This document shows positions 1 through 6,905 of a DNA stretch of 6,905 bases, in pieces. The stretch is from Gammaproteobacteria bacterium (GTDB lineage Bacteria > Pseudomonadota > Gammaproteobacteria > Arenicellales > JAOTYS01): positions 1 to 6,905 of the forward strand of contig JAOTYS010000252.1 of assembly GCA_029861795.1 (NCBI GenBank), written 5' to 3'. How positions within the stretch are numbered: the first letter of the stretch is position 1; every line of letters starts with the position of its first letter. The notes beneath the pieces are model-generated. The model saw nothing but the letters and a program-made list of their open reading frames with translations. It did no database searches and was not told the origin of the DNA. The position numbers and the translations under genes are program-made.

Positions 1-58
1 GAGATCTAAACTGAATCTGACTGCGACGTGCCGTTAAGGTTACTGTGGATTTGCTTAT

Positions 59-430
59 ATGATACTTAAAGACATTTCTGATCGATTTCATGATTTCAAT
101 ATCTATGAAACAAGATTCCTCAGCGATTCCTATGTAGAGATCGTCCTTTCGGAGAAGGACATTCCTAAATCCAACAAGTTGCTGCATGAGCTATTGGGCC
201 CACCAGCTAAGGAGGCCGCGGGGAAACCGTCAAAAGAAATGCAAGCACTAACAAATGAACACGGGGGAATCAGCATAGGGCAAACCCTATATTTGAAAAA
301 CTCAGAAGACGGTCTCGTAGCGGTAATGCTGTGGCCATGGCGAGATGGTAATCACACCACGCTAAAAATGTTCATATCAGAAGAAAAAACGCTCAATCTA
401 AGAAGTGTCCATGTTGATCCAATAACTTGA
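59..430 (+). CDS. Hypothetical protein, 123 aa, unknown function
   Basis: This is a small, probably cytoplasmic protein that I do not recognise. No signal peptide, membrane helix, metal motif or nucleotide-binding motif is visible. The composition is balanced and protein-like, with a charged, mainly alpha/beta-looking N-terminal half, a Gly/Pro/Lys-rich linker near residues 47-60 and a strand-rich C-terminal half (around residues 70-107) containing a Trp-Pro-Trp. The ATG start is the first in frame, but no clear Shine-Dalgarno lies at the right distance; an AAGG at 36-39 is too far. Its coding sequence looks AT-richer than the neighbours, which might indicate separate acquisition. The last 38 bp overlap the end of the convergent ParA gene, so the two transcripts would be antisense over their 3' ends. 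I believe it is a real gene because of the composition, but the function is unknown. Confidence 0.6.
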   Translation: MILKDISDRFHDFNIYETRFLSDSYVEIVLSEKDIPKSNKLLHELLGPPAKEAAGKPSKEMQALTNEHGGISIGQTLYLKNSEDGLVAVMLWPWRDGNHTTLKMFISEEKTLNLRSVHVDPIT

Positions 431-1172
431 GGCGGCTGGCGATATCTTTCCAAAGAGCCTGGTACTCGAGCGCAGCCTGACTGTTTCGGGCGAAACAACC
501 CAACGGCTCTCTCACTAAACCCATGCGTTCTACGATGCTGCTATAAGGGATAAAGGATTTTGAGAATTCTGGTAGTTCATTAACCGTATTGACCATGATT
601 TCTCTGTGCATTTTCTTACGTAGATCAACTAACGAGAAAAACGGCACTAGGATTAGATGGTCAAGCTTCTCCTTTTTTTTGTGGCGATATCTGGACAACT
701 GCTCCCATGTCCTCATAGATAGTGTTGTCGGAACAAGGGGAACTAGTAGAGCGTTCGCTGCCATAAACACTGCTTCGGATGTCAGAGATATACTCGGGGC
801 ACAGTCCAAGATCACATAGTCGTACTGTTTCTCAAGCGGTTTAAGTACTTTAGCTAGTTGGTGCTTGGGTTTTTTGGAACGATCTAAGAAAAGGTCGAGG
901 TTACGATAAGAGAAATCTGCGGGCAGTAGATCTAAGCGCTCATAATTGGTCCCTTTAATCAGCTCATCGAGGGCACCCTTGCGTCTTATTATCCATTTGC
1001 CGCCACCTTTCACTTTTGGCTTAATTCGAAAATAAAAGCTAGCGGCACCTTGCGGATCCAGATCCCATAGCAAGATACGCCCGCCCTGTTGGGCCGCAAC
1101 GTAAGCCAGATTTACAGCGGCCGCGGTCTTCCCGACACCACCTTTGATGTTATAGGTCGCAAGGATTTTCAT
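393..1172 (-). CDS. ParA/MinD-family ATPase (Soj-like)
   Basis: This is a 259-residue cytoplasmic P-loop ATPase of the ParA family, which forms ATP-dependent dimers that bind DNA nonspecifically and move plasmids, chromosomes or large protein cargo. The deviant Walker A motif KGGVGKTA is at residues 10-17, with both the signature Lys10 and the catalytic-loop Lys15. Walker A' is WDLDPQG at 36-42, and the Walker B-like ILDCAPS is at 121-127. The length fits stand-alone ParA proteins, and there is no N-terminal helix-turn-helix of the plasmid SopA type. The gene starts 13 bp after the CHAD gene stop, so the two are almost certainly cotranscribed; the ribosome binding site is weak. No ParB gene or parS-like site cluster is visible, which argues against a chromosome-partition locus and for an orphan cargo-positioning ATPase. 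The family assignment is firm; the cargo is inferred. Confidence 0.93.
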   Translation of the reverse strand: MKILATYNIKGGVGKTAAAVNLAYVAAQQGGRILLWDLDPQGAASFYFRIKPKVKGGGKWIIRRKGALDELIKGTNYERLDLLPADFSYRNLDLFLDRSKKPKHQLAKVLKPLEKQYDYVILDCAPSISLTSEAVFMAANALLVPLVPTTLSMRTWEQLSRYRHKKKEKLDHLILVPFFSLVDLRKKMHREIMVNTVNELPEFSKSFIPYSSIVERMGLVREPLGCFARNSQAALEYQALWKDIASRLKLLDQHGHFLD

Positions 1173-1185
1173 TTGACTTATTAAG

Positions 1186-2769
1186 CTACAGTTTGTTCTC
1201 CGGGCGGTGCAGATCGTGAAACATCTGGGTTACTGACTTTGCATGGAGCTCGGCGCAGTGCCTGTCAAAATCTTTCTTTGCCTCACGCTGGCGCTCGAGC
1301 ATGTGCTCGATCAATATGCCTAAGGCGATGTAGGTATCAACCGACGTCGCTCCTTCTTTCTGCATTTGGTGGCCAAGGTCACTTAGGGCGGAGACTTGGA
1401 CACTCACATCCTGGATGACACCGAGGATGTCCTGGATTTGTCTTAGTGTGTGGAGCACTTTCGGGAATTTTTCATCCTGGATAATGTCTCGTGAGAACCC
1501 TAGCAAGTAACGAAGTTTCTTACATGTTTTTCTCAGTTCGTGATATGCGGAATTAGGGCTGTCCAAACGAATGGCTTGGCTTTCACGTAGCGACTCGCGA
1601 TAAACCTTCGAAATTCGTTTTGCCGCGAATTCGCCGATCGGGGACGTGGCTTTGGCGGTGGACCAGAGGCCGGTTGACTTCAAGGTTTCCCGCCAGTCAC
1701 GGCAGATGGTGTGATAGCGGCGTGAATGCAGATGTGAGATGAGTTCCCCCAGTTCGGCGTTACGCCGCTTTTTGATGAAAGCAAACAAAGGCTCCAGGTG
1801 AACGGCCATGTCTGTAGGAACACTCGTCCTGTACTCATCAAATTTCAAGGTAAACACATCGAGATCACGTAGTGGGCTAGTAATCGTACCAAGCCACCTA
1901 AATTCGTCACTGAACCGTAGGTTGATAGGTTTTGGAAGCACCTTTTTAAACTGACTAAGGGTGGTGCGTGTGCGTCGTATTGCGACTCGAAAATCGTGCA
2001 GGAATTCAGTGTCTAAATCGGAAAGTACGCCTGCTTCGTTTTGTATCATCGACTCGAACAGATCAAGCAGGAGTGTCTTCACTGCGGTGTCCGATCGGAT
2101 GCCAGGGTCTGGAGCGAATCTATGCTTATGCGGGGGCGTGGGTGTCCATCCCTCACGCCGAGCCACCTCTAGGAAAACATCCTGGGTCGAGGGCCGAAGC
2201 TCAAACCGCTTTTGCAAGACATCTATCACGTGATCTAGTTCGTTGTCGTATCCTTTCACTGGGTTTAGATACAGCCGCCGGATCGAATAGCTGCGATTGT
2301 CACTATTTGCCTTAGAGACGCTCTCCTCAGCGACTAAGCGAACTAGTATTTTGCCGTCATTATTCGCGAATTCTGCGCTTTGGAGTTGGCTGGATAGATG
2401 ACCGCGCGGTAGCAGCGCCCGTACATCGACGACGGTATTCAAGCTTTCTTTCAGGTCTCCATCAGGGAGTTCTGATATATACCGGGGCGCTTTACTAATC
2501 ACACAGCAGGCTTTTCGCACTGGAGAGTTCAAAGCTCGGAGAACGAGCACACGTTGCCTTGGGCTGCGTTCCTCAACCAAGACTTGGCCTTTGGAAAAGA
2601 TGCGCCAATCGAAGGTGTCGTAGAAGACGCGATCTATCCTTTTCGGTTTGTCGATCTTGAGATCGAGAATCTCACTCAGCTTCTTTAGAAGCAAGTCCGG
2701 ACTCTGATGATTTGCTATGTCGAATTGCAATGGAATGATCAAGTCGATATCAAGCGTCTCAGTAGACAA
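1186..2769 (-). CDS. CHAD domain protein with degenerate CYTH-like N-terminus
   Basis: This is a 527-residue protein with two parts. The C-terminal CHAD domain covers roughly residues 226-520. It carries the two helical-repeat signatures: HDFRVAIRRTR at 258-268 and HELRKTCKKLRY at 410-421. These conserved His, Arg and Lys residues form the basic groove that binds inorganic polyphosphate in characterised CHAD proteins. Residues about 10-200 resemble the CYTH (triphosphate tunnel) fold found with CHAD, including the typical YDTFDWRIFSKG stretch at 50-61. The N-terminal ExExK catalytic motif of CYTH enzymes is not visible, so this part is probably non-catalytic. No signal peptide or membrane helix is seen. 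The start is TTG, chosen because GAGAGG lies 6 nt upstream and the next in-frame Met is far downstream. The gene leads an operon with the ParA ATPase. CHAD is confident; the CYTH relationship is moderately so. Confidence 0.88.
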   Translation of the reverse strand: MSTETLDIDLIIPLQFDIANHQSPDLLLKKLSEILDLKIDKPKRIDRVFYDTFDWRIFSKGQVLVEERSPRQRVLVLRALNSPVRKACCVISKAPRYISELPDGDLKESLNTVVDVRALLPRGHLSSQLQSAEFANNDGKILVRLVAEESVSKANSDNRSYSIRRLYLNPVKGYDNELDHVIDVLQKRFELRPSTQDVFLEVARREGWTPTPPHKHRFAPDPGIRSDTAVKTLLLDLFESMIQNEAGVLSDLDTEFLHDFRVAIRRTRTTLSQFKKVLPKPINLRFSDEFRWLGTITSPLRDLDVFTLKFDEYRTSVPTDMAVHLEPLFAFIKKRRNAELGELISHLHSRRYHTICRDWRETLKSTGLWSTAKATSPIGEFAAKRISKVYRESLRESQAIRLDSPNSAYHELRKTCKKLRYLLGFSRDIIQDEKFPKVLHTLRQIQDILGVIQDVSVQVSALSDLGHQMQKEGATSVDTYIALGILIEHMLERQREAKKDFDRHCAELHAKSVTQMFHDLHRPENKL

Positions 2770-2775
2770 GAAGTG

Positions 2776-2781
2776 CCTCTC
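2776..2781 (-). promoter_or_regulatory. Ribosome binding site deciding a TTG start
   Basis: On the minus strand GAGAGG stands 6 nt before the TTG codon at 2769-2767. It supports TTG as the true start of the CHAD gene, since no in-frame ATG exists near the N-terminus. Confidence 0.65.
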
Positions 2782-2852
2782 TACCGTTGAGTTTAGCTCG
2801 CGTTACTGGCAGGGGATTACCGAAGTGGACGAGCTCGCGTATTAGAGACTTT

Positions 2853-2903
2853 ACCATATCCGATCACCTAAATAAGCAAAACCTAACATTTGGCTGATAT
2901 GGT
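2853..2903. promoter_or_regulatory. 8-bp inverted repeat in divergent promoter region
   Basis: ACCATATC at 2853-2860 and its exact complement GATATGGT at 2896-2903 face each other across 35 bp, between the divergent CHAD gene and the small 77-codon gene. The arms are about 43 bp apart centre to centre, close to four helical turns, which would suit a looping or paired regulator. On the plus strand a TATTAT at 2915-2920 is a candidate -10 box for the small gene. The rest of 2770-2947 holds no gene. The repeat is seen directly; its function is a guess. Confidence 0.35.
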
Positions 2904-2947
2904 TCTAGCTCGTTTATTATTTCAACAAGAGTACGAAGGAGCTCATC

Positions 2948-3181
2948 ATGCAATGTTACCAACCACTTGCGCTACATTTGTGTCTACACGCAATCACAAG
3001 TGCACGACTTCCCGACATGAAGTTCGATGTGTATTCCTTGGCGCAAGCACTCCAGCAAGCACAGATTGGTACTCTCGATGCTCTTCTGGATTTGGGATCC
3101 GAAGACGTCGAAGCGCTGGGAAAGGCCGCGTACACAATATACAAACGCTATTTTGGCGACAGCCTTAGGCCTGCCGCCTAG
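2948..3181 (+). CDS. Small hypothetical protein, 77 aa (or 54 aa from Met24)
   Basis: A short gene whose ATG has an excellent Shine-Dalgarno, AAGGAG at 2936-2941, with a 6-nt spacer. The first 23 residues look irregular and Cys/His-rich. From Met24 onward the sequence looks like a genuine small protein: amphipathic helices of Ala, Leu and Gln (about residues 28-45), a short Gly-Ser-Glu-Asp turn, then a helix with Ala, Tyr and Lys (about 52-68). There is faint resemblance to the helical body of phasins (PHA granule surface proteins), too weak to name it so. Translation could start at either Met; the ribosome binding site favours the longer form. It may also be a remnant of a larger gene. No partner gene is evident; it is divergent from the CHAD-ParA operon. 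Confidence 0.45.
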   Translation: MQCYQPLALHLCLHAITSARLPDMKFDVYSLAQALQQAQIGTLDALLDLGSEDVEALGKAAYTIYKRYFGDSLRPAA

Positions 3182-3233
3182 CGGGATCATCAAAGCTTGA
3201 GTTGTATTGAGGAGTTGCTCTATCTCCACTAGC

Positions 3234-3263
3234 TTGTGGTGACGCGTTTACGTTTATTATTAT
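3234..3263 (+). promoter_or_regulatory. Possible sigma-70 promoter for the oxygenase gene
   Basis: TTGTGG (3234-3239) and TATTAT (3258-3263) are separated by 18 bp in an AT-rich patch, about 110 bp before the oxygenase start. The -10 box fits well, the -35 box poorly. The remainder of 3182-3375 shows no gene, terminator or repeat that I can support. Confidence 0.25.
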
Positions 3264-3375
3264 TCACTGAAGTGGTATCGACGAATTTCGCTGGCGGGAT
3301 TTCTATTTCAGGTTGTTGGACCAATCTGGGCGCTGCAGTAAAATCTCAAATTCAAACTTTTAATGGAGCAATGCC

Positions 3376-4200
3376 ATGGTCGGCGTCCCTGACACCCCAT
3401 CGACAATCGATCTCGAGCGCTATCCCCTGCACAAACTCGACGCAGGGGCAGGACGAACCTTGGTTGAGCAATGCCGGCGCGATATCGTCGAGAACAGCCT
3501 GTGCCAGCTGCAGGGGTTCTTGAAGGCAAGCACGGTTAAGACTGCTGCCGCGGAAGCGCTGCGCTGTGGCGAGAGTGCCTATCATATGTCAAATGAATTT
3601 ACCTACGGCGAGGGTATGCCATATGCGATCGATCCCGATGCGTTGCCTAAGGACGATCCCCGTCGTTACCGGATCCGGACGAAGCTGCGTTTTGTAGCGA
3701 GCGATGAGATCCCTTCAAATTCGTTGCTACTCGCGCTCTACCGTTGGGAGCCGATGCTACAGTTCGTCTCTCGCGTGTTTCAGTGTGAGCCCCTATATCG
3801 TGCAAGCGATAAGCTGAATGGCCTCAACTATCTTGTTTATGAAAATGACGATGAGCAGGATTGGCATTTTGATGAGCAAGATTTTTCGGTCACTATTCAG
3901 TTGCAATCCGCCGAACAGGGTGGATTTGAGTTCGTACCCAATCTGAGGGGGGCCGACGGTGAGGACTTGGATGGCATGCGCTTGGCACAACAAGGGGTGC
4001 ACCCAAAGCTTGTTTGTCCGAAATCTGAACCAGGTACACTGTCGTTGTTCGAAGGGCGTTACAATTACCATCGCGCCACCAAGGTCGTAGGGCCTCGCAA
4101 GCGACTTATGGCGCTGCTGCAGTATTACGATGGGCCTTACGATCCGATGGATTCAGAAACCGTTGAGCTCAACCGTATGTTCTACGGGCGTGGCTCCTAG
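3376..4200 (+). CDS. 2-oxoglutarate/Fe(II) oxygenase, HalD/BesD-like
   Basis: This is a 274-residue cytoplasmic non-haem iron oxygenase that would couple oxidative decarboxylation of 2-oxoglutarate to oxidation of a small substrate. The metal triad is visible: His164 and Asp166 in WHFDEQDF, and the distal His232 in GRYNYHRATKV. Arg241 or Arg243, in the PRKRLMALLQYY stretch, is the likely 2-oxoglutarate carboxylate ligand. The pattern GGFEFVPNLR at 182-191 followed by PGTLSLFEGR at 219-228 is typical of the family that includes the amino-acid halogenases BesD and HalD. Those halogenases replace the Asp of the triad with Gly; here Asp is kept, so hydroxylation is predicted. GGAG at 3365-3368, 7 nt before the ATG, supports the start. 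A decayed sodC follows 28 bp downstream and was probably cotranscribed. The oxygenase fold is confident, the subfamily moderately so, and the substrate (perhaps a free amino acid) unknown. Confidence 0.82.
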   Translation: MVGVPDTPSTIDLERYPLHKLDAGAGRTLVEQCRRDIVENSLCQLQGFLKASTVKTAAAEALRCGESAYHMSNEFTYGEGMPYAIDPDALPKDDPRRYRIRTKLRFVASDEIPSNSLLLALYRWEPMLQFVSRVFQCEPLYRASDKLNGLNYLVYENDDEQDWHFDEQDFSVTIQLQSAEQGGFEFVPNLRGADGEDLDGMRLAQQGVHPKLVCPKSEPGTLSLFEGRYNYHRATKVVGPRKRLMALLQYYDGPYDPMDSETVELNRMFYGRGS

Positions 4201-4228
4201 CCACGCAACGTAGGGAAGGAGGTTGTCC

Positions 4229-4673
4229 GTGAAACGAATATCGATCCTCATCTTTGCGGTTTTACTCATCAATGCTGGCACCAGTGCTGCCGACTCCATC
4301 GATGTGACAATGCATCTGTTGACATAAACGGAAGTTGGCAAAGAGATCGGAACTATTAGGGCAGAGGATAGCCAGTACGGTACTGTTTTTGCGCTCGATC
4401 TTAGCGAGCTTACTGCAGGGCTATATGGGTTTCACGTAGACCAGAATTCCGATTGTGGCCCAGCGGCGGAAGACGGAAACGTGGTCTCCGGTCTAGCTGC
4501 GGGCAGCGACTATGGCCCCACCTCAGTAGGACAGCACTTGGGTCCATACGCAAATGGTCACTTCGGCGACTTGCCTGTCCTCTAGGTGAAGGCAGACAGG
4601 CGATAACTACTGGGATCATCCTAAGAAGCTCGGCGGTGGTGGAGTGCGGATAGCCTGTGGGGTGGTCGAATAA
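4229..4673 (+). pseudogene. sodC: Cu/Zn superoxide dismutase (sodC) pseudogene
   Basis: This is the remnant of a periplasmic Cu/Zn superoxide dismutase. It begins with GTG after a strong AAGGAGG (4216-4222, 6-nt spacer) and encodes a signal peptide of about 21 residues ending TSAA. Codon 33 is TAA (4325-4327). Reading on in frame gives recognisable SodC to codon 118, including GFHVD, CGPA, GQHLGP and GHFGDLP, then TAG at 4583-4585 where the family usually has a hydrophobic or aromatic residue. The C-terminus, GDNYWDHPKK then LGGGGVRIACGVVE, resumes in another frame from 4599 and ends at TAA 4671-4673. Roughly 27-30 codons, including the His of the VHxGGDN segment, are deleted. Of the metal ligands, His69, His103, His111 and Asp114 remain, but the second Cu His is Asp71 and the bridging His is Asp94. 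Both disulfide cysteines survive. Loss of function is essentially certain. Confidence 0.93.
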
Positions 4674-4684
4674 TTGTCGTCTAA

Positions 4685-4710
4685 CGGCCAAAGGTCTGCC
4701 TGTTTGGCCG
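4685..4710 (+). terminator. Stem-loop, probable terminator after sodC remnant
   Basis: CGGCCAAA (4685-4692) pairs exactly with TTTGGCCG (4703-4710), and GG/CC inside the loop can add two further pairs with a small bulge. It sits 11 bp after the old sodC stop. The following GTTTATC is only weakly T-rich, so a true intrinsic terminator is likely but not certain. Confidence 0.5.
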
Positions 4711-4744
4711 GTTTATCGGTCAGCTACTTATCTACTGTTGCAGT

Positions 4745-4764
4745 ATTAGTCATATATGACTAAT
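4745..4764. promoter_or_regulatory. Perfect 20-bp palindrome, candidate PadR operator
   Basis: The half-site ATTAGTCATA is followed immediately by its exact complement, giving a 20-bp palindrome with no spacer that ends 11 bp before the PadR start codon. PadR regulators commonly bind such dyads over their own promoters, so autoregulation is the natural reading. A weak TTGCAG (4738-4743) and TAATTT (4761-4766) at 17-bp spacing would place the palindrome between promoter elements. No Shine-Dalgarno exists between the palindrome and the ATG, so the mRNA may be leaderless. The dyad is seen directly; the binding protein is inferred. Confidence 0.6.
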
Positions 4765-4775
4765 TTAACTGTCCC

Positions 4776-5288
4776 ATGGCTAACGAGAAGTATCTGCTGC
4801 TCCTAGGCGTTCTGCTGACCCACGAGGCTCATGGGTATGACCTGCTCGCCATGCTTGAACATAATCCGACCGTCCCAATATCGCTAAAGAAGGGAAATAC
4901 CTATCAATTGCTTGCCAAGATGGAGGCCGAGGGTTGGGTGAGATCACGGGAGGAAACAAGCGGACACCGTAGCCGACGAATATATGAGGCAACGCAGAAA
5001 GGAAAGGCTAAATTCAGGGAGTTGTTGCGTCACAGCCTGGAGAAACCCTCTAATGATGAGGCTGCAAGTGCGGTCGCACTCAACTTCATCGATCACATAC
5101 CGGTCAATGAAGTGATCGAGCTTCTGGGTCGTAGGCTAGAGCACATCGATCGGCGTTGCGAGGAATTGAACGATCTTCCAAAACAAGCGCGTGATACGCA
5201 TCCCGGTGTCGAACTCTTGTATCAATACCGCGTTCAAGAACGACAACTACTAAGGGAGCTGATGCGGCAAGCTATGAATTCAGTTTGA
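4776..5288 (+). CDS. PadR-family transcriptional regulator
   Basis: This is a 170-residue DNA-binding protein of the PadR family, usually a dimeric repressor responding to small or phenolic molecules. The winged helix-turn-helix occupies about residues 5-80. It opens with a hydrophobic helix ending LLLLGVLL, followed by AHGYDLL (18-24), the recognition region GNTYQLLAKMEAEGWV (40-55), and the wing with RRIYEATQKGKAKF (67-80). Residues 82-170 are a helical C-terminal region rich in Glu, Arg and Leu that would form the dimer arm; its length fits the longer PadR subfamily. The chosen ATG gives the standard PadR N-terminus although no Shine-Dalgarno precedes it. A perfect palindrome just upstream is the probable operator. 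Likely targets are its own gene and perhaps the M24-type hydrolase gene 177 bp downstream. The family call is confident; the ligand is unknown. Confidence 0.87.
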   Translation: MANEKYLLLLGVLLTHEAHGYDLLAMLEHNPTVPISLKKGNTYQLLAKMEAEGWVRSREETSGHRSRRIYEATQKGKAKFRELLRHSLEKPSNDEAASAVALNFIDHIPVNEVIELLGRRLEHIDRRCEELNDLPKQARDTHPGVELLYQYRVQERQLLRELMRQAMNSV

Positions 5289-5351
5289 GCGTTAGATCTC
5301 TCCTTTTTCTGTGTCATAACCAATTCCTACAACCGTAATCAGGACCAGACC

Positions 5352-5414
5352 GGCACTTGTGGCGCCTGCTGAGTAGTTGGTGGCGTAAACCCTGTAGTTG
5401 GTGGCGTGAACCCT
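5352..5414. repeat. 21-bp tandem repeat in spacer before hydrolase gene
   Basis: Two adjacent 21-bp units (5373-5393 and 5394-5414) differ at a single base (A/G). Each contains GTTGGTGGCG followed by TRAACCCT. A third, decayed unit precedes them in exact phase: the core GTGGCG recurs at 5359-5364, 5380-5385 and 5401-5406. The period is two helical turns, so a protein could bind each copy on the same face. The rest of 5289-5465 contains no gene; a good ribosome binding site, AGGAG at 5455-5459, closes it. Confidence 0.7.
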
Positions 5415-5465
5415 TTTTGGTGTCGACCTTGAACAGTTAAACGAGATCGAAGATAGGAGTAACCA

Positions 5466-6617
5466 GTGGCTCTACAATTTTCTCGCGACGAGTACGACGC
5501 ACGCCAGCGAAAGGCGTGTGCCAAGATGGCGGACGAAGGTCTTGACGGTCTACTCATCTTTCGTCAGGAGAGCATGTACTACCTGACAGGCTACGACACC
5601 GGCGGCTACACGATGTTTCAGGGTATGTATATGAATGTGGACGGAGAGATGGTTCTTTTGGTTCGCTCCGCCGATCGCATCCAGTCACGTCTCACCTCGG
5701 TGGTCGAAGACATCCGGGTATGGGTGGATCGCGAGGGTGCCAATCCAGCGGACGATGTTAGGCAAATGATCGATGACCTGGGCGGTCGTGGTAAGCGAAT
5801 CGGTGTGGAATACCATGCCTATGGATTGACCGCGCAACGCGGCAAGATGGTTGACGCTGTGCTGCAAGGATTTTGCGAATTGGTTGACGGCTCTGATCTA
5901 GTGCGTGTGTTGCGTTTGGTGAAAAGTCCGGCTGAGCTAGAGTATGTCCGTAAGGCCGGTGAGCTTAGTGACCAGGCATGGGGTGTTGCGAATCGGATGT
6001 CCAAGCCAGGCGAATTTCTGGGCAACGTCTACGGCGAGATGCTAAACGTTATCATGCGCGGCGATGGTGATCCCACGGCGAGCCGCTGGCCCATGGGGGC
6101 TGGAGAGGATGCGTTGTTTGTCCGATACCACACGGGAAAGAATGTGATAGGTGCCCATGACCAAGTGCAGCACGAATTCGCCGCCGCCTACCGCCATTAT
6201 CACGCTGCCGCCATGAGCGTGGTGTTAACCGGCGAGGCAAGTGCAACGCAACGCGACATGTTCAAAGCATGTGTAGACGCCCTACAGGCGACCGAAGAAA
6301 CCTTGCGCCCTGGGAATACCGTGGGCGACGTGTTTGACGCTCATGCCAAGACGTTTATAGAGGCTGGTTATGGTGACGCCTATCTCAACGCCTGTGGCTA
6401 CACCATGGGGGCGACCTATCCACCCACCTGGATGGACTGGCCTATGTTTTGGACCGGGAATCCGCAAGTCCTTGAACCTGGCATGGTGTACTTCCTGCAC
6501 ATGATTCTGCTGGACGATAAGACCGGTCTCACCATGTCACTTGGTGAGACAGTTATTGTGACTGAAGGTGCGTGTGAACCTGTTAATAACGCGCCCCGCG
6601 AGTTGGTGATCAACTGA
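5466..6617 (+). CDS. M24-family creatinase-like hydrolase (DoeA/ectoine-hydrolase-like)
   Basis: This is a 383-residue cytoplasmic protein of the M24 'pita-bread' fold, which includes Xaa-Pro peptidases, creatinase and the ectoine hydrolase DoeA. An N-terminal creatinase-type domain (about 1-150, with MYYLTGYDTGGY at 37-48) is followed by the catalytic domain (about 155-383). IGAHDQV at 228-234 aligns with the segment holding the catalytic His of creatinase, making His231 the likely base. Most metal ligands of true M24 peptidases are missing: no Asp is present in AAAYRHYHAAAM (239-250), the GHG-type His is Tyr in GYTMG (311-315), and the Glu of the TIEPG position appears as His345. Glu361 in LGETVIVTEGACE remains. 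A metal-independent hydrolase of a small C-N substrate is therefore more likely than a peptidase. The GTG start is supported by AGGAG (5455-5459, 6-nt spacer). The fold is confident; the substrate is not. Confidence 0.82.
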   Translation: MALQFSRDEYDARQRKACAKMADEGLDGLLIFRQESMYYLTGYDTGGYTMFQGMYMNVDGEMVLLVRSADRIQSRLTSVVEDIRVWVDREGANPADDVRQMIDDLGGRGKRIGVEYHAYGLTAQRGKMVDAVLQGFCELVDGSDLVRVLRLVKSPAELEYVRKAGELSDQAWGVANRMSKPGEFLGNVYGEMLNVIMRGDGDPTASRWPMGAGEDALFVRYHTGKNVIGAHDQVQHEFAAAYRHYHAAAMSVVLTGEASATQRDMFKACVDALQATEETLRPGNTVGDVFDAHAKTFIEAGYGDAYLNACGYTMGATYPPTWMDWPMFWTGNPQVLEPGMVYFLHMILLDDKTGLTMSLGETVIVTEGACEPVNNAPRELVIN

Positions 6618-6698
6618 CTAGACCTGAATGTCACGCACTTAAGGAAAATGTCAGTCAAAATTGCCGCATTTAGTCTCACACGTGATTCCCGCGAACGA

Positions 6699-6730
6699 CT
6701 GCACGGATGCAGGAGGTAGAGCAACGCAGG
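6699..6730 (+). repeat. Diverged copy of the downstream hairpin repeat
   Basis: CTGCA-CGGA-TGCAG (6699-6712) forms a 5-bp hairpin with the same CGGA loop as the tandem units. The sequence after it (6713-6730) matches the unit's second half at about 14 of 20 positions, but about 10 bases corresponding to the end of the unit are missing. It looks like an older member of the same repeat family. The gap from 6618 to 6698 holds no gene or clear terminator. Confidence 0.6.
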
Positions 6731-6905
6731 GATAGATACACGGATGTATCGTAGTAGGGTAATGCAGGAGCAATTACCGATAGATACACGGATGTATCGT
6801 AGTAGGGTAATGCAGGAGCAATTACCGATAGATACACGGATGTATCGTAGTAGGGTAATGCAGGAGCAATTACCGATAGATACACGGATGTATCGTAGTA
6901 GGGTA
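6731..6905 (+). repeat. 48-bp tandem hairpin array, running off the window
   Basis: Three identical 48-bp units (6731-6778, 6779-6826, 6827-6874) are followed by the first 31 bases of a fourth at the window edge. Each unit contains two hairpins. The first is GATACA-CGGA-TGTATC (6735-6750 in unit 1). The second has arms GGTAAT (6758-6763) and ATTACC (6773-6778), an inner GC/GC pair with one bulged A, and an AGGA loop. Both loops carry GGA on the plus strand, the same direction as the upstream hydrolase gene. The bases ACACGGATGT in the first hairpin match the known CsrA/RsmE consensus (A/U)CANGGANG(U/A) at every fixed position. Perfect identity of units implies recent expansion or homogenisation. 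The repeat is certain; an RNA role is inferred. Confidence 0.93.

Follow-up and report, generated by a model that had tools for sequence, protein, structure and literature searches.

A tandem array of GGA-loop hairpins behind a metallopeptidase gene is probably an amplified unit of a dispersed, mobile palindromic repeat

Hairpins with GGA in the loop are the site described by the CsrA SELEX and RsmE consensus sequences, and a series of them on one strand raises the question of whether it serves as a CsrA-titrating RNA or belongs to a repeat family of the DNA. The locus in question lies at the 3′-end of the window, by which we mean the whole 6,905-nucleotide stretch analysed here (Arenicellales contig JAOTYS010000252.1, positions 1 to 6,905). 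CACGGATG occurs there five times on the plus strand, at 6702, 6739, 6787, 6835 and 6883, as a first-pass annotation had listed; 0.22 occurrences are expected, and five or more were reached in none of 200 shuffles. That annotation proposed that a transcript of the array could sequester a CsrA homologue, and named an intergenic palindromic repeat family as the main alternative.

The array is preceded by a gene for an M24 metallopeptidase with a Creatinase_N domain (5466–6617, plus strand; Pfam PF00557, E 2.2e-22, and PF01321, E 1.1e-18). Two 21-bp direct repeats (GTAGTTGGTGGCGTAAACCCT, 95%) lie just 5′ of this gene, at 5373–5414. A first, truncated unit (6696–6730) begins 79 nt past the last base of the gene on the same strand and comprises CGA, a first hairpin (H1, CTGC-ACGGAT-GCAG, 6699–6712), a GAGGTAG linker and the start of a second hairpin (H2) that lacks its 3′ arm. 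An exact tandem array follows at 6731–6905, found by repeat search and by Tandem Repeats Finder (period 48, 3.6 copies, 100% match); it reaches the window end at 6905, and the 3.6 copies are the portion inside the window. Each tandem unit, also on the plus strand, is laid out as H1 (GATAC-ACGGAT-GTATC, 6735–6750, repeated at 6783–6798, 6831–6846 and 6879–6894), then GTAGTAG, then H2 (GGTAAT-GC-AGGA-GC(A)-ATTACC, 6758–6778, repeated at 6806–6826 and 6854–6874), with a REP-like GTAG tag immediately 5′ of H2 (6754–6757, repeated at 6802–6805, 6850–6853 and 6898–6901). Four of the five CACGGATG copies are in the 48-bp array and one is in the truncated, diverged unit upstream. The earlier view that the array arose by exact tandem duplication is borne out by the perfect match between its copies, and the four tandem copies, being duplicates of a single sequence, do not count as separate support for the motif.

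Local folding gives eight GGA hairpin loops in the window, five in H1 (CGGA) and three in H2 (AGGA), in agreement with the at least seven announced in the first pass. The H1 loop with its closing pair corresponds to the CsrA/RsmE site. The RsmE consensus with its A/U flanks fits the copies in the tandem array, as the first pass had stated, but not the one at 6702, which has G and C as its neighbours. A single unit folds as two hairpins at −13.0 kcal/mol (z −3.14), and its complementary strand folds equally well (−13.1, z −4.37). The unconstrained fold of the array reaches −63.0 kcal/mol, compared with −51.5 under a 30-nt limit on pairing distance: adjacent tandem H1 copies pair together, four H1 loops close up and the middle G of the tandem H1 GGA is unpaired only ~10% of the time. 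The H2 loops and the H1 of the first unit remain open in this fold. This preference of the tandem H1 copies for mutual pairing speaks against titration.

The part of the window that matches sequences elsewhere is the first unit, which shares 90–95% identity over 36–38 nt with copies in seven plasmid records, five of them from Pseudoalteromonas, and which also has matches in 2 of 5426 E. coli genomes. A family pattern allowing up to two mismatches was present in 16 of 299 Pseudomonadota genomes and its reversed control in 0; a looser pattern was present in 11 of the 61 genomes of one order. With the looser pattern, copies occur on both strands: 32 forward and 24 reverse in the richest genome (G194, 56 copies), and 11 and 20 in G005. 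Most unit-bearing genomes have only a few copies. Tandem runs of 47–48 nt were also seen at two contigs of genome G205. The exact window unit had no match elsewhere in the collections scanned, and what is shared is the family. Phage records gave no match; in viral contigs, two window-specific patterns gave 0 matches and the family pattern gave six stretches, one of which (L268) is unlike the unit. A pattern with 16 fixed bases, tried for a viral source, gave 42 stretches in viral contigs that by eye are coding and unlike the unit, and this candidate was set aside. In a search run without a positive control, the array was not found in any of four genomes with relatives of the peptidase (75 to 57% identity, seven loci); the array thus seems not to be tied to the peptidase gene. 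A literature search with sequence letters and topics, in a limited library, did not find the unit described.

Several copies show the unit as an insert of defined length. Among six aligned sequences of the BREX gene pglX, a subfamily-2 unit forms a 48-nt, in-frame insert in three and is absent from the other three, which were chosen by us among 70 matching plasmid records. The insert adds 16 in-frame residues to the PglX methyltransferase (L052, 2502–2549; L122; L125) and is carried by one plasmid each of Moellerella and Salmonella and by an E. coli chromosome; the last two share a protein accession, which makes two distinct filled sequences rather than three, and unlike the others they also lack a stretch just upstream of the insert. 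The pglX unit is one kind that lies inside a gene. The unit has also entered other repeats. Of 27 script matches for a TwoAYGGAY-like repeat, 15 have the unit between their two hairpins, and all of these are in G194; 6 of the 27 have only GA at that place (G194, G062) and 6 are run-ons to a later motif. The CCCTCTCCC palindrome is filled by the unit in 4 of 26 cases (G066, G062, G194), empty in 19 and of other spacing in 3; script lengths of 46–48 instead of 48 reflect a fuzzy right flank that can take two bases. GA flanks the insert on both sides in all three settings, as if the target had been doubled on insertion, and the left neighbour in other copies is TA, CA or TT. The filled and empty sites of defined length were seen for subfamily 2, and the window's own copy is not among them. 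A separate observation in G194 is that the unit lies mid-way in another composite repeat, whose ends resemble CTGTTTTTAAC ... GTTTTTCAACAGCCTGCTAG (L101, L106, L107, L111) and which looks like a CTAG-ended MITE.

The stems of the family vary while remaining paired. Counts of conservation are biased towards conservation, the search pattern naming most of these bases. Among 73 distinct units, each of four H1 pairs is Watson–Crick in 66 to 68; one position shows GC, CG and AT pairs, and a second shows TA, CG and GC. H2 stems include GCAAT/ATTGC, GCAAC/GTTGC, ACAAT/ATTGT and GTAAT/ATTAC; outside subfamily 2, 27 of 42 units form 5/5 pairs, 5 form four and 10 form fewer, whereas in subfamily 2 none of 31 units reaches 4 of 5. 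One relative, L220, does not show the two-hairpin fold.

The family thus combines scattered copies on both strands, insertion into a gene and into two other repeats, compensating stem changes and tandem duplication, and it is the intergenic palindromic repeat family that the first-pass annotation had offered as its main alternative, with copies in many genomes. The array itself is, with good probability, a tandem-amplified, two-hairpin, REP/MITE-like mobile palindrome of 48 nt including a GA. We infer that an enzyme acting on DNA hairpins inserted the unit, and slippage or unequal recombination would then have expanded it behind the peptidase gene. Like MITEs, the units are short, non-autonomous inserts within genes and other repeats; unlike MITEs, they show at their ends no terminal inverted repeats of a known IS that we could recognise by eye.

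REP elements are marked by GTAG ahead of a hairpin, which makes a common GTAG-type REP, moved by a RAYT (Y1 transposase), a rival to consider. The window has the tag immediately before a hairpin of at least five pairs, the hairpin H2 is imperfect, tandem copies occur, and the many dispersed copies are intergenic in a REP-like manner and rare between divergent genes. In 70 relatives the T, A and last G of the GTAG before H2 are each kept in 69, and its first G in 62. However, Y1_Tnp genes were present in 8 of 10 unit-bearing genomes and the core repeat stood beside none of their 27 loci, within flanks of up to 1.5 kb (shorter where a contig ended) and for the Y1_Tnp family only, whereas other repeated GTAG hairpins were found beside the Y1_Tnp genes of L087 and L097, so that such pairs are visible where they exist. 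To our knowledge, REPs have neither a pair of unlike hairpins in each unit nor GA at both flanks. A RAYT origin is not supported by the 27 loci and appears improbable. As compared with the REP/BIME elements of the GTAG super-family (PMC3733652), the units are likewise short intergenic palindromes that are rare between divergent genes, form tandem clusters, sometimes lie inside genes and have GTAG 5′ of a hairpin; they differ in their pair of unlike hairpins, ends of the form CGA...CCGA, GA-flanked inserts and lack of a RAYT neighbour among the loci searched.

How a repeat of this kind bears on CsrA depends on its loops. In most relatives H1 reads C-ANGGAT-G: the 73 distinct units have loops of ATGGAT (51), AGGGAT (5), ACGGAT (5), AAGGAT (1) and others (11). 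Across 70 units the G, G and A of the motif show 2, 0 and 2 changes, compared with 14 for the preceding N and 6 for the last T, and GGA is thus the least variable part of the loop. H2 keeps GGA in most units despite changes of loop length (AGGA, ATGGA, AGGGA, CTGGA). The first-pass annotation had regarded the same repeat scattered in both orientations with no loop conservation as contrary to its proposal; the scattering was found, but loop sequences mostly persist across copies that differ in their stems. CsrA binding is accordingly still to be reckoned with, and the window array may conceivably titrate CsrA. The linker, however, is conserved as much as the loops, and wobble pairs give no clear sign of selection on RNA: on the GGA strand, H1 has 7 G-U and 4 A-C pairs and H2 has 2 and 1 (counted outside subfamily 2, in units with at least 4 of 5 pairs), similar numbers from few events.

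The titration reading holds that the array is transcribed, either as a small RNA or within the peptidase mRNA as its 3′ UTR, and that its GGA loops, at least eight in number, tie up a CsrA homologue; it predicts hosts with CsrA and units in the sense orientation. A csrA gene is present in 13 of the 16 unit-bearing genomes, and the three without are assemblies of 1.2–1.7 Mb. Within one order, however, csrA occurs in 10 of 11 genomes with the unit as against 39 of 50 without (p 0.44). For orientation, 112 units remained after duplicate removal, of which 71 had both neighbours called within 800 nt by our own gene-calling heuristic, 3 lay within called genes and the remaining 38 were incomplete. 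The 71 comprise 32 between convergent, 36 between same-direction and 3 between divergent genes, a placement that resembles the one reported for REPs in the gaps of convergent and same-direction genes (PMC3733652). Between same-direction genes, 20 units are sense and 16 antisense (p 0.62); five other gene-calling settings gave 16:12, 14:9, 16:13, 11:5 (p 0.21) and 14:9, so that all six lean sense and none is significant. A sense bias was at first apparent in a smaller run with crude gene calling (11:5), but it shrank to 16:15 with a codon model and to 20:16 with more loci, and was given up.

The window itself offers few signals of a dedicated transcript. A sigma-70-like promoter was not found in 6400–6905, where other promoters or read-through could still act, and the one terminator-like site (6526–6550) is inside the gene, upstream of the array. 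A scan of the window against Rfam returned nothing relevant at E up to 1, including the CsrB/RsmZ-type family models. The array shares with the CsrB/RsmZ small RNAs a series of hairpins with GGA in the loop on one strand, but it consists of tandem copies of a scattered repeat and has no match to their families. The CsrA-titrating RNA of the first pass is therefore supported in part: the family mostly retains its loops, but neither the orientation test nor the G-U test points clearly to a family that acts as RNA; as a physiological titrator of CsrA the array seems rather unlikely. Under the mobile-palindrome reading, the array would act mainly as a DNA element or as a passive 3′-end hairpin; read-through transcription into it may yield RNA showing CsrA-type loops, with CsrA binding as a by-product or a later use.

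The same kind of loop is found in TwoAYGGAY (RF01731), which has been proposed to bind CsrA (PMC4333381) and in this respect favours titration. At E up to 0.001 there are at least 87 matches in G194, at least 52 in G066 and at least 40 in G062, with 95 candidates scored of 430, 302 and 289, respectively; matches are present in 5 of the 16 unit-bearing genomes and in 0 of 14 control genomes. TwoAYGGAY is a dispersed repeat in these three genomes, and its many copies there call for caution with its Rfam label as a cis-regulatory element. Several divergent pairs ~360 bp apart were observed among the matches listed (L103, L107, L108). TwoAYGGAY and the unit both have hairpins with A-N-GGA-T type loops and both are dispersed repeats, TwoAYGGAY with many copies in G194, G066 and G062, but their remaining sequence differs, the unit inserts into TwoAYGGAY-like repeats, and the window has no match to RF01731 at E up to 1.

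Two repeats that otherwise differ share one GGA loop, which mobility alone does not account for. One explanation is that at least two different dispersed families, the 48-nt unit and the TwoAYGGAY-like repeat, carry a high-affinity CsrA/RsmE loop that they disperse as they transpose. Transcripts of the host would in this way acquire CsrA-binding 3′ ends, forming a distributed sponge, and tandem amplification like that in the window would produce a strong local titrator. The sharing of the loop keeps this account in play, though we consider it quite unlikely. Should the loops be genuine CsrA sites, a global post-transcriptional regulator can be rewired through transposition that scatters the sites it binds, a route of which the literature searched gave no prior report. 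If they are not, the TwoAYGGAY label and motif-based predictions of CsrA sites may partly track mobile DNA palindromes.

A shared binder other than CsrA, such as a transposase, nucleoid protein or nuclease, could instead recognise C-ANGGAT-G hairpins as single-stranded DNA and so maintain the loop in both repeat families. In a 400-kb sample of G194, ATGGAT (with its complement) is the top hexaloop of hairpins with 5-bp stems, at 10 places with four stems, and in G062 ATGGAT and AGGGAT each occur 5 times, next to a top loop with 6; these counts may come from copies of few repeats rather than independent origins. The non-significant strand bias relative to genes is also consistent with such a binder. 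Such a binder is hypothetical, and we regard it as unlikely, if conceivable.

Elsewhere in the window, a reading frame at 4229–4672 contains four internal stop codons and is apparently a decayed gene, pieces of which by eye resemble Cu/Zn superoxide dismutase. The window also encodes a CHAD protein, with matches in 5 of 19 genomes and 27% identity over the longest match.
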